Origin: Aquaspirillum serpens DSM 68
GTDB taxonomy: Bacteria; Pseudomonadota; Gammaproteobacteria; Burkholderiales; Aquaspirillaceae
Assembly: GCF_000420525.1 (NCBI RefSeq)
Contig: NZ_ATVC01000001.1
Span: 1-64,000 of the forward strand
DNA: 64,000 nucleotides
Reading direction: 5' to 3'
The notes beneath the pieces were generated by a model. The model had not been told where the DNA came from. It saw only the letters and a list, made by a program, of their open reading frames with translations, and did not search any database. Positions 42,045 through 47,411 of the stretch are shown piece by piece. The position numbers and the translations under genes are program-made. Numbering within the stretch: the first letter of the stretch is position 1; each line of letters opens with the position of its first letter.

Positions 42045-43178
42045 TTATAAAATAATAGATACTTCGATGTTGCCGTTACCCAAAGTTTCACGGCCACTTA
42101 CCGTGACACGCTTGTCGGTATTAAAAGCCAATAGCACTTCGTCAATGAGCTCAGGAGGAAAAGAGCAGAAATGTTCACTGCCATCATCTGTGCCACGCAA
42201 TGTGAACGTGAAATTGTCTTTGTCCACCTCAGGAATCAGGCCAGAAATTTGGCAAATCCGTTCTTGGGTCGAGCGAGCGTTTCTAAGCGCATTGCTGACA
42301 CGTTTCGATGACTCACGGGTTAGGGGGTAGCGTTTATGAGCGTTCTTGAAAATACGTCCACGTAATTCAACCGACTCAACAATACCAGTTTGTCTTGGAA
42401 CCAGCTTCTCAAGGGCTTCTAGGAGTTCAAGATCAATTTCGCTGGTGTCAGCAGAATCTAATGTTGTTTTGAGTGCCCATTCAATCGCCTGCTGTAGCTG
42501 GTTGCCAATTTCTTCGAATGCCTCACTGAGATCATCAGCAGAGCCACCATCAGGCAACTTGAGCTGCTTGAGATCTGGAAGTTTAAATGCGACCTCAAAG
42601 CTGTTGTAAGCAAACCCCTGTGCCGGTAAGTCATAGAATTGTCGAATGAAGTTGGCCTTCCGACCTTGCGGGCGACCTTTCTCAAACACTCGGCTGGCGA
42701 TTTTCTTAAGCGCAGTCGTTGCACCGTCAATGACTTGGCGGATCACACTGGCCGGAACATTGCCTTCTGACAATCCTTCACCGATTGCTCGCAAAGCAAA
42801 AACGGGCTCCAAGTGAGACCAGAGCATAACGCCAGACTTTGGCAGAACATCAGCTGGAACGTCAGCCAAGGTACAGCGCCAGCTTTTTTGAGGTATTCCG
42901 TTGAAGGAGATATCTACCACCCAAATCCAGGGCTGATTCAATGCATCCCAAACAGATAAAATGCCACTCTTTAGGCGTTCGACGATCTGCGCATTCGTTG
43001 GCACAACAATGAATCGTGAAATTCCATCATCCTCTTCAGCGAGGAAGTAGAGCAACGTCCCAAATAAGCTGGTCGCCGTGAAAATTCTGGGGCCATCGAA
43101 TTCATACAGAATTTCATTAAGTTGAACACCAACGAAAGGTTCGATGCCAAACTCAGGTGCATTAATTTGCCAGTCCAT
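42045..43178 (-). CDS. Uncharacterised protein, second gene of a two-gene cassette
   Basis: I do not recognise a function for this 377-residue protein. The first ~100 residues look like a small beta-rich domain (EFDGPRIFTATSLFG ... RFIVVPTNAQIVERLKSG), similar in style to a domain of unknown function I recall as DUF6575; this is unverified. A middle helical part (~190-260) contains LEALEKLVPRQTGIVESVEL, and the C-terminus is beta-rich again. No signal peptide, membrane helix or catalytic motif is evident. It starts ten bases after the 124-residue gene at 43189-43563, so the two form an operon. It lies in island B, between msbA and the Abi gene. Confidence 0.6.
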   Translation of the reverse strand: MDWQINAPEFGIEPFVGVQLNEILYEFDGPRIFTATSLFGTLLYFLAEEDDGISRFIVVPTNAQIVERLKSGILSVWDALNQPWIWVVDISFNGIPQKSWRCTLADVPADVLPKSGVMLWSHLEPVFALRAIGEGLSEGNVPASVIRQVIDGATTALKKIASRVFEKGRPQGRKANFIRQFYDLPAQGFAYNSFEVAFKLPDLKQLKLPDGGSADDLSEAFEEIGNQLQQAIEWALKTTLDSADTSEIDLELLEALEKLVPRQTGIVESVELRGRIFKNAHKRYPLTRESSKRVSNALRNARSTQERICQISGLIPEVDKDNFTFTLRGTDDGSEHFCSFPPELIDEVLLAFNTDKRVTVSGRETLGNGNIEVSIIL

Positions 43179-43188
43179 ATTCAGTACC

Positions 43189-43563
43189 TCAGGGGCTCAC
43201 GGCCAGAGAAAATGGTTCGGCACGGTCAACACCCTCGTAGGGCCACCAAGTGGTATGAGTGGGATGCCGATTACTCGGCGTCAGCTTGAGAACACCATGG
43301 CATGGCTGCAGTTGACCGCGCATCACATATTGGCCCAATTTCGGAAAGAGCTGGGTCAGGTGTTCGGCATCATCCAATGTACGAAAAAGAGACAAACCAA
43401 CTCGCAGGCACTGTGGGCCAGTCGATTTTTTGCCCAGTTCCTCATGCGACATGAAATCTTCTGCAGTGGGAGGATAGCTTTTCGCAACACGAAACAATTG
43501 ACCATCAGCCGCTTCAGCATCGTCTGGAGGACATCCCTGTGGCCATGAAGAAGGAAAGTTCAT
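43189..43563 (-). CDS. Small uncharacterised protein, first gene of a two-gene cassette
   Basis: The 124-residue product begins MNFPSSWPQGCPPDDAEAA and contains LFRVAKSYPPTAEDFMSHEE and a C-terminal HTTWWPYEGVDRAEPF. I recognise no family. AAGAGA precedes the ATG at 43563. It is followed closely by the 377-residue gene. The soluble, tryptophan/proline-containing sequence gives no hint of a catalytic role; a partner, regulator or adaptor for the downstream protein is possible. A perfect 20-bp tandem duplication lies 51 bases upstream and may be its operator. Confidence 0.6.
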   Translation of the reverse strand: MNFPSSWPQGCPPDDAEAADGQLFRVAKSYPPTAEDFMSHEELGKKSTGPQCLRVGLSLFRTLDDAEHLTQLFPKLGQYVMRGQLQPCHGVLKLTPSNRHPTHTTWWPYEGVDRAEPFSLAVSP

Positions 43564-43614
43564 GGTGTTTCTCTTGGCAAAATAAATAATTCAAAATTTT
43601 AAATCGCCTCATTC

Positions 43615-43654
43615 TGAGTGTCACGCCTAAAGTTTGAGTGTCACGCCTAAAGTT
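43615..43654. repeat. Perfect 20-bp tandem duplication upstream of the cassette
   Basis: The unit TGAGTGTCACGCCTAAAGTT occurs twice in direct, contiguous array. It sits between the two-gene cassette (minus) and the IS200/IS605-like hairpin, where it could be a repressor-binding operator or the scar of a mobile-element end. Confidence 0.7.
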
Positions 43655-43771
43655 GCTGCCAAGTTAACCTCCGACCCCAGCACCACCAGAATTTGCCACC
43701 AGCTGTTTACGAACAGAACACGGCAAACAAACAATCTATCTCTCTGTCCGAAAAAATTTGACTATTACAGA

Positions 43772-43815
43772 TATCCACGCCATGAACGGCGAGGTTTTAC
43801 GACGCGTGGGATAAA
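43772..43815 (-). mobile_element. Solo IS200/IS605-type end, relic
   Basis: The 42 bases at 43773-43814 match 36 of 42 of the tnpB-linked end at 134-175, in the same orientation. The stem is weaker (CGCC/GGCG). No tnpB fragment is visible on its minus-strand side, so it is a remnant. Confidence 0.55.
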
Positions 43816-43841
43816 AATACCCTTTAGAAAAAAGTTTGCCC

Positions 43842-43884
43842 CCGGGGGCATGCTTTCGCAGAGGTCACACCGGGGGCTTGCTTT
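43842..43884. repeat. 15-bp direct repeats before the Abi gene
   Basis: CCGGGGGCATGCTTT (43842-43856) and CCGGGGGCTTGCTTT (43870-43884) differ at one base and are spaced 28 bp start to start. The first also overlaps the palindrome GCCCCCGGGGGC. They lie 70-110 bases before the Abi start, where promoter or operator elements are expected. Confidence 0.5.
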
Positions 43885-43952: not shown

Positions 43953-44648
43953 GTGACGAATACAAAGCTACCGATGCTAGATGCGGCTAGTCTGTCTAAG
44001 GCAGAAGATACTCTCACCAGATCCCGCTTGGGTAAGTACCTGCGAGTAACAAGAAACAACTTACAGCAGGCTCTACGCCTTTATGTATTGAATGCTAAAG
44101 TAAGTGCGGCGGTAATGACCGACCTGCACTATATCGAGATTGCCATGCGCAACAGGTTTGATCGCGAGTTGACAAACCAATACGGCATTAGTTGGTTCAA
44201 CAACACTCAATTCTTGAACCTATTGAATGAGATGACGCGCCGTATTCTGTTGAAAGCACAGAGAAATGCCGAGAAGCACTGGCCTAAGGGGATACCACTG
44301 CCGCCTGGCAAAATCATCGCAGAGTTAACCTTTGGATTCTGGTTGAGACTTACCGACTCGAAGCTAGAACATACGCTTTGGGTTCCTTGTTTGCATAAGG
44401 CTTTTAGCCCAAATAAGGCTCCAAAACGGGCAACATTCAATCAACAGTTGGAAAAGTTACGACAGCTCAGAAATCGCGTTGCCCATCATGAACCAATTTT
44501 TCATCTTGATTTACTGGATACCTGTCGGCGAATTCACGACGTAGCAAAACTACTATGCCCTACAACTGCGCGTGTGATGAGACAGACTAGCACCGTCAAA
44601 CGGCAGGTGATGAAACTGAACAAATATCGCCAGTTGCGCGGAATATAG
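43953..44648 (+). CDS. Abi family protein with HEPN-type motif
   Basis: The 231-residue, mostly helical protein has DLHYIEIAMRNRF (~57-69) and LRQLRNRVAHHEPIFHLD (~169-186). The RNxxAHH core (Arg173, His178) is the R-x4-H signature of HEPN ribonuclease-like domains as found in the Abi_2 (AbiD/F) family. Such proteins act in abortive phage infection and toxin-antitoxin systems; this function is inferred. The start is a GTG at 43953, with GGAG 9 bases upstream. It stands alone on the plus strand in island B after two direct repeats and is followed by an IS3 relic. Confidence 0.75.
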   Translation: MTNTKLPMLDAASLSKAEDTLTRSRLGKYLRVTRNNLQQALRLYVLNAKVSAAVMTDLHYIEIAMRNRFDRELTNQYGISWFNNTQFLNLLNEMTRRILLKAQRNAEKHWPKGIPLPPGKIIAELTFGFWLRLTDSKLEHTLWVPCLHKAFSPNKAPKRATFNQQLEKLRQLRNRVAHHEPIFHLDLLDTCRRIHDVAKLLCPTTARVMRQTSTVKRQVMKLNKYRQLRGI

Positions 44649-46064: not shown

Positions 46065-47411
46065 TCAATGCTCACTGTCTTCAACAGAGATTAGACGATC
46101 GCTTGGGAATACCACACTGAATGTGCTGCCGCGCTCTAATTCACTGTCCACTTCTAACCGCGCATGGTGCCGCGCCAATACATGTTTCACGATGGCAAGA
46201 CCAAGGCCAGTGCCACCGGTACCACGCGAACGACCACGATCGACACGATAAAAACGCTCGGTTAAGCGCGGGATATGTTCACGCGCCACACCAATGCCGG
46301 TATCGGTCACACTGAAAACGGCCCGTTCATGATCGGTACCTTTGCCAGCGATGCGCCAGCGCAAGGTAATCGTGCCGCCCTCGGGGGTATAGCGCACGGC
46401 ATTGGAAACCAAATTGCCAAATGCACTATGCAATTCCGATGTCTCGCCAGAGAGATTTATTGGCGCTACTTCAGCCAGTACCACCTGATGCCGGCCTTGT
46501 GATAGCCCTTCGGCTTCGATCAGCAACGTACGCAGCATATCTTCCATTTCCACCACATCATGCGCCGATGAAATCGGGTTGCTTTCTAAGCGTGATAGCG
46601 TCAGCAAGTCTTCCACCAAATTTTGCATACGTTTTGCCTGCTCCATCATCATCGGCAAAAATTGACGCAAGGTCTGGCTATCGACATCAGGCATATCAGA
46701 CAGGGTTTCTAAGAACCCACCTACCACTGTCAGTGGGGTACGCAATTCGTGGGAAACATTGGCGACAAAATCGCGGTGAACGGTTTGCACCCGCTCTAAT
46801 TGAGTAATGTCTCTTGATAACAGCAATTTACGGGTGGAATCGAAGGGAACTAACTGCACGGACAACACCAACTCACCACCTGAACGCATTTGACGCAGGA
46901 TTTGTGGTTGGCTGTATTGCTGTTCGGTGAGATAAGCATGAAAGCCCGGTTGTCGAACAAGATTGGCAATTTGTGAACCAATATCCTGTGAACCAATATC
47001 CTGTTTGCGATTGAGTGAGAAATGTTCGACCGCCATCGGATTAAACCATTCGATCCGATCCAGTTCATCCAGCACCACCACGCCATCGGGCATCGCCTCA
47101 CCCGCATTGATAAAGCGCTCTAATACATTAGCCAGTTTTTTTTGCGACAAGCTCTGTTGCCGGCTTTGGCGATATAACAACGAGAAAACTTGATCCCAAT
47201 TTCCATAACCATCGGGAATTTTGTCCGGCTGAGGGTCATGTAGCCACTGCAACAACGCCCGTAGATGCCACAAATGGAACAATAGCCATAACAGTAAGCC
47301 CGTGCTCAGCACCACTAACCCATATTCGTTCTCGGTGGCCCACGCAACAATGATGGAAACTGCGGCGAGGAGGGAAAATCCTTTGAGACATCGCCAAAAA
47401 AATGCGTTCAC
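46065..47411 (-). CDS. phoR: Phosphate regulon sensor histidine kinase PhoR
   Basis: The 448-residue kinase has two N-terminal membrane helices with a very short loop (FSLLAAVSIIVAWA and YGLVVLSTGLLLWLLFHLW), a PAS-like domain (~95-190, MPDGVVVLDELDRIEWFN), a HisKA domain with the phospho-acceptor in FVANVSHELRTPLTVVGGF, and an HATPase domain (NLVSNAVRYTP, DTGIGV, GGTGLGLAIVKHVL). This is the PhoR layout. It lies four bases after phoB. A tandem 15-bp duplication (46974-47003) repeats DIGSQ inside the PAS region. Confidence 0.92.
   Translation of the reverse strand: MNAFFWRCLKGFSLLAAVSIIVAWATENEYGLVVLSTGLLLWLLFHLWHLRALLQWLHDPQPDKIPDGYGNWDQVFSLLYRQSRQQSLSQKKLANVLERFINAGEAMPDGVVVLDELDRIEWFNPMAVEHFSLNRKQDIGSQDIGSQIANLVRQPGFHAYLTEQQYSQPQILRQMRSGGELVLSVQLVPFDSTRKLLLSRDITQLERVQTVHRDFVANVSHELRTPLTVVGGFLETLSDMPDVDSQTLRQFLPMMMEQAKRMQNLVEDLLTLSRLESNPISSAHDVVEMEDMLRTLLIEAEGLSQGRHQVVLAEVAPINLSGETSELHSAFGNLVSNAVRYTPEGGTITLRWRIAGKGTDHERAVFSVTDTGIGVAREHIPRLTERFYRVDRGRSRGTGGTGLGLAIVKHVLARHHARLEVDSELERGSTFSVVFPSDRLISVEDSEH

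Follow-up and report, generated by a model that had tools for sequence, protein, structure and literature searches.

We identified a two-gene cassette in Aquaspirillum serpens DSM 68 that is probably an abortive-infection toxin-antitoxin pair, derived from a prophage and belonging to the PD-T4-10 superfamily, in which the first protein (A) would neutralise the second (B) through the N-terminal head of B, and the C-terminal tail of B would act. The cassette lies in a 64,000-nucleotide stretch of the genome (contig NZ_ATVC01000001.1, positions 1 to 64,000), hereafter the window. PD-T4-10 is an abortive-infection toxin-antitoxin system: PD-T4-10B is toxic and is needed for defence against T4, and PD-T4-10A, which could not be deleted, neutralises PD-T4-10B (Vassallo et al., 2022; PMC9519451). 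The experimental basis for toxicity and protection lies in PD-T4-10, and it is by analogy with that system that B of the window pair would be toxic and A protective.

A preliminary description of this DNA had recognised no function in either protein and had guessed at a defence, toxin or regulatory pair. The guess was well placed, as homology indicates a PD-T4-10-like toxin-antitoxin defence pair. The proteins are less obscure than that description suggested: the experimentally studied PD-T4-10 family takes in A and also the head of B, which leaves the B tail as the sole new part.

Homology of the gene pair to PD-T4-10

Gene A (43189–43563, minus strand; 124 aa, ATG start) encodes a protein of the PD-T4-10A antitoxin family with a predicted ADP-ribosyltransferase (ART)-like fold. 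Gene B (42045–43178, minus strand; 377 aa, ATG start) lies 3′ of A at a spacing of ten bases, and the coordinates of both minus-strand ORFs agree with the preliminary description. The B protein divides into a head (residues 1–122; 42813–43178, minus strand), which carries the DUF6575 domain common to PD-T4-10B, and a tail (residues 123–377; 42045–42812, minus strand), which is distantly similar to the PADLOC candidate PDC-M32A and differs from the tail of PD-T4-10B. B is present as a single copy in the 2.61-Mb draft genome (119 contigs).

Window A matches the PADLOC profile PD-T4-10_A at E 0.0022, a weak score in a library that gives no curated cut-off, and a relative 82% identical to it matches at E 6.7e-5. 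In profile-profile comparisons with hhalign, the window A set aligned with an A set from E. coli and Rahnella at 98.4% (6e-15) and with A proteins from other phyla at 99.6% (2e-24). Taken together, PADLOC and hhalign establish the homology of A to PD-T4-10A. The Pfam domain DUF6575 was found on the head of window B at E 0.013 and on that of a close relative at E 2.1e-5, both short of the curated cut-off, and we counted B as carrying a DUF6575 head. Both window proteins score weakly by themselves (0.0022 for A, 0.013 for the B head), so the case for kinship with PD-T4-10 rests on their relatives. Pfam, NCBIfam and PHROGs searches of the window proteins gave nothing strong, and searches with full-length B against Pfam, NCBIfam, PHROGs and PDB sequences gave nothing above cut-off. 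Wherever annotation exists, the plasmid-borne relatives of A (Rahnella, Oscillatoria) and the E. coli copies have a DUF6575-annotated gene after them.

The window pair resembles PD-T4-10 in having adjacent, co-directional genes in the order A then B, an A protein of the same family and an N-terminal DUF6575 head in B. It differs in that its genes do not overlap, being ten bases apart. It also differs in its tail: window B and its relatives match PD-T4-10B (PDLC04024) over residues ~20–120 only, and the tails are unrelated by profile comparison, whereas five other loci (L028, L029, L030, L032 and L034) match PDLC04024 over nearly its full length, with E values down to 5e-52. The pair is therefore not PD-T4-10 itself, and since there is no match to PD-T4-10B past the head, homology does not imply that window B is toxic. 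Three E. coli prophage pairs with DUF6575 (L018, L019 and L020), which are not necessarily the validated PD-T4-10, share with the window the A family, the head, the adjacency of the genes and the prophage location, but their B tails are DUF7226-like and their A and B genes overlap by 4 bases.

Pairing of A with the head and exchange of tails

The preliminary description had named rare pairing of the two families as grounds for abandoning its guess. Such rarity was not seen. Of 398 genomes of the phylum scanned with an A profile, 11 matched, the window's own included; in all ten other genomes, a B head lay directly downstream of A on the same strand, as judged with a head profile built without these ten genomes. 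The all-A and all-B alignments were too diverse to serve as scan queries. Exceptions to the pairing are two short A-like proteins from Chloroflexi without an adjacent B, and one DUF6575-head-like protein without A, which is found on a Rhizobium plasmid (L006, 5376–6531) and adjoins an apparent GmrSD/DUF262 ORF. Damaged or altered copies were also observed: A is split over two frames in both L031 and L012, L033 has A and the head fused into one short ORF, and L016 has a B shortened to 169 residues.

B is modular on profile comparison, with A and the head constant and the C-terminal tail drawn from one of about five groups without detectable similarity to one another, an arrangement that looks new. 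The tail types are that of the window, which is PDC-M32A-like; an M63B-like type (L008 and L010); a DUF7226-like type in the E. coli copies (E 5.6e-6, slightly short of the curated cut-off); an M78 peptidase (ImmA/IrrE) type, carried by three genomes; and the tail of PD-T4-10B proper. Tail-tail comparisons by hhalign gave less than 4% for every pair of groups. In head-head comparisons, the window group aligned with three others at 95.7–99.7%; directly against the fourth, the full-length PD-T4-10B group, it reached a weak 4.9% (E 0.008), and the two heads are connected through the M63B-like group, which aligned with the PD-T4-10 group at 95.9%. Neither the M63B-type B alignment nor the B protein of L031 recovered any relatives when used to scan viral contigs.

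Two PADLOC candidates share tail-like regions with these proteins: PDC-M32A with window B (residues 219–360, E 7.1e-5), and PDC-M63B with the B proteins of L008 and L010. They belong to separate two-gene candidate systems, and PDC-M63 was inactive in one native host (PMC12409345).

The trees of A and of the head are broadly congruent, and their distances are correlated (Mantel r 0.82, 0 of 5000 permutations), a value to which near-identical rows and common descent contribute. The window clade joins the M78-tailed loci in the A tree (support 95/98) and two of the three M78-tailed loci in the head tree (92/90). The union of the window clade with M78-tailed loci in the A tree indicates that tails were exchanged while A and the head stayed together. 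In the tree labelling, the window and M63B-like types bear one label, which derives from a full-length alignment; the tails alone do not support merging them.

With A and the head constant and the tail changing, action of A on the head is the simplest interpretation. We infer a mechanism in which A, the antitoxin, would neutralise B, the toxin, by acting on its conserved DUF6575 head, and in which the exchangeable tail would supply either the toxic act or phage sensing; a phage that disturbs A would release B, and the infected cell would be stopped. PD-T4-10, on which the papers searched contain a single study, thereby gains a shape: antitoxin and head stay constant and the tails are exchangeable, an architecture that recalls polymorphic toxins. 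Annotation with full-length profiles misses such systems, as PADLOC matches only one tail type as full-length PD-T4-10.

Predicted fold of A and the assignment of roles

The preliminary description had proposed fold prediction of both proteins as a check. This gave a confident model for A (pLDDT 90.7, pTM 0.84) and, for B, a model reliable for the head alone. The beta-rich ends that the description had ascribed to B were borne out at the N-terminus; in the C-terminal two thirds the model is unreliable (pLDDT mostly <50). A fold search with the B model returned no credible match because the tail is poorly modelled.

The top three Foldseek matches of A in the PDB were RES toxins of RES-Xre pairs (probabilities 0.97, 0.97 and 0.82; E 0.022–0.093), which have the ART fold and include PDB 9r35 (0.97) and 6gw6 (0.82); ParT and other ART proteins came after them. 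Among viral structures, the matches include DarT and a PARP, at E > 0.5. The TM-score between A and the RES matches is ~0.46, and searching PDB sequences with the A profile yielded noise only and no sequence similarity, so that the predicted ART-like fold of A is a lead and not a proof.

Arg25 and Ser58 of A are invariant in 26 of 26 sequences, His103 in the 25 of 25 that have a residue there, and Trp107 is nearly invariant. In the model, which has six strands, Arg25, Ser58 and His103 sit on strands 1, 2 and 5, where ARTs bear their motifs. The third invariant residue is His and not the Glu of the R-S-E catalytic triad; some ART clades use motifs other than R-S-E. A confident model with ART proteins as best matches, in combination with these three invariant residues, appears to be new for A. 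The protein might act as an enzyme, or it might be a binder with a retained ligand pocket. The two Chloroflexi A-like proteins (L013, 1973–2326; L014, 6545–6937) lack the first ~20 residues and keep the Arg, Ser and His.

The ART-like fold may matter for neutralisation. In its strongest form, A would be an active ART-like antitoxin that modifies the DUF6575 head, one enzyme neutralising many toxins with interchangeable tails, which we regard as unlikely though well within consideration. We know of no earlier description of an enzyme antitoxin that neutralises a set of tail-swapped toxins through their head. The enzyme fold predicted for A would suit type VII toxin-antitoxin systems, whose antitoxins chemically modify their toxins; that of HEPN-MNT is a nucleotidyltransferase (PMC11586414). 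The PD-T4-10A family gains in this way a testable idea of the nature of its antitoxin.

ART folds usually occur in toxins, not in antitoxins, and RES is the toxin (an NADase) of its pair, whereas A is the antitoxin of its family. The roles might accordingly be reversed in this subfamily, with the ART-like A as toxin and B as an antitoxin or inhibitor that holds A through the DUF6575 head. Such a reversal would suit RES, ParT and other ART toxins as best structural matches, invariant residues at the places of the ART motifs, and a window B tail that differs from that of the proven toxin. We nevertheless consider it improbable: B alone is toxic in PD-T4-10 and A neutralises it, A comes first in the operon, as is usual for antitoxins, and His replaces the Glu of R-S-E ARTs in the third motif.

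Prophage origin, promoter and integrity

The window pair is prophage-derived as judged from its relatives and remnants. Three relatives on viral contigs (L021, L015 and L022) keep both ORFs, with identities of 82–85% for A and 80–91% for B, and the gene order in L021 and L015 is integrase-A-B. The mobile-element relics mentioned in the preliminary description could be located as an integrase 3′ scrap and two IS-end scraps. The first (43648–43701, minus strand), upstream of A, is a 54-bp prophage tyrosine integrase 3′ end, 80% identical to the end of the L021 integrase (E 4e-6). An IS3-family end scrap (43691–43771) is ~90% identical over ~80 bp to nine other genome sites, one of which has an IS3-type transposase C-terminus alongside, and the end scrap of an element with a tnpB-like gene (43770–43816) has about 20 other copies in the genome, the two inspected copies adjoining TnpB-like ORFs. 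Similarity to L021 breaks off at 42055, just short of the B stop codon, and relative to L021 window B has its final ~10 codons replaced. No empty site was found in four family genomes with orthologous msbA, where tal did not turn up in the upstream stretch analysed (only ~0.5 kb in one of them).

The predicted promoter of the A-B operon (GTGACA-17-TAAAAT; 43596–43624, minus strand) lies 33 bp before A. It is singled out by conservation in three relatives, the motif G[TC]GACA-17/18-TANAAT occurring 15–35 bp before A in the window, L021, L015 and L022, and not by the promoter scan, which by itself found 1 site against 2.3 expected by chance. The perfect 20-bp tandem repeat previously seen before the pair was found at 43615–43654, 51 bp upstream of A. 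A role as a regulatory or att site was set aside, as the repeat is a duplication that runs from the end of the integrase scrap through the -35 box; L021 and L015 have a single copy of the corresponding stretch.

Against these relatives, dN/dS is 0.06–0.09 for both A and B, which denotes strong purifying selection in the lineage as a whole, a measure that very recent decay would escape. As both ORFs are kept in the viral-contig relatives at these values, A and B are real genes and not chance ORFs. The integrase and IS scraps beside the pair and the replaced end of B would be compatible with a decaying, non-working remnant, but the intact frames, the low lineage-wide dN/dS and the retained promoter make decay of the window copy a quite improbable account.

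Genomic neighbourhoods

Turning to the toxin-antitoxin reading in its wider setting, the neighbourhoods of the pair are often prophage or defence-rich and form no conserved housekeeping operon, the context that the preliminary description had held to count against its guess. In the E. coli and Rahnella relatives, A-B is an additional gene pair within prophages; other relatives neighbour type I restriction-modification, AAA_21 (AbiEii-type), GmrSD and PLD-helicase genes. At a PADLOC threshold of E 1e-8, 94 neighbour proteins matched 141 families and 71 control-stretch proteins matched 10, a contrast that is an indication of defence-gene enrichment and not a test, since the families overlap, families and not proteins were counted, and some of the neighbour loci, namely those from plasmids, Paenibacillus and viruses, lack a matched control. 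That the pair is some other prophage gene set, for instance one that regulates lysogeny or superinfection immunity and does not kill cells, is very improbable: its neighbour is the integrase in L021 and L015, and in E. coli prophages it adjoins antitermination or lysis genes, but many relatives lie outside prophages near restriction-modification, Abi-type AAA, GmrSD and helicase defence genes, and toxin-antitoxin activity is proven in the PD-T4-10 family.

The adjoining HEPN/Abi gene of the preliminary description was recovered at 43953–44648 (plus strand; Pfam Abi_2/HEPN-like, E 1.9e-9). It matches PADLOC PD-T4-5 (7.8e-12) and AbiD (1e-9) and is a separate system, a further candidate for anti-phage defence that stands back to back with A-B. 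Between them, a short palindrome with a minus-strand T run (43837–43850) is a possible terminator. Elsewhere in the window, a PhoR-like sensor kinase gene contains an in-frame 15-bp tandem repeat (46972–47004, 2.2 copies), which adds a repeated QDIGS unit.
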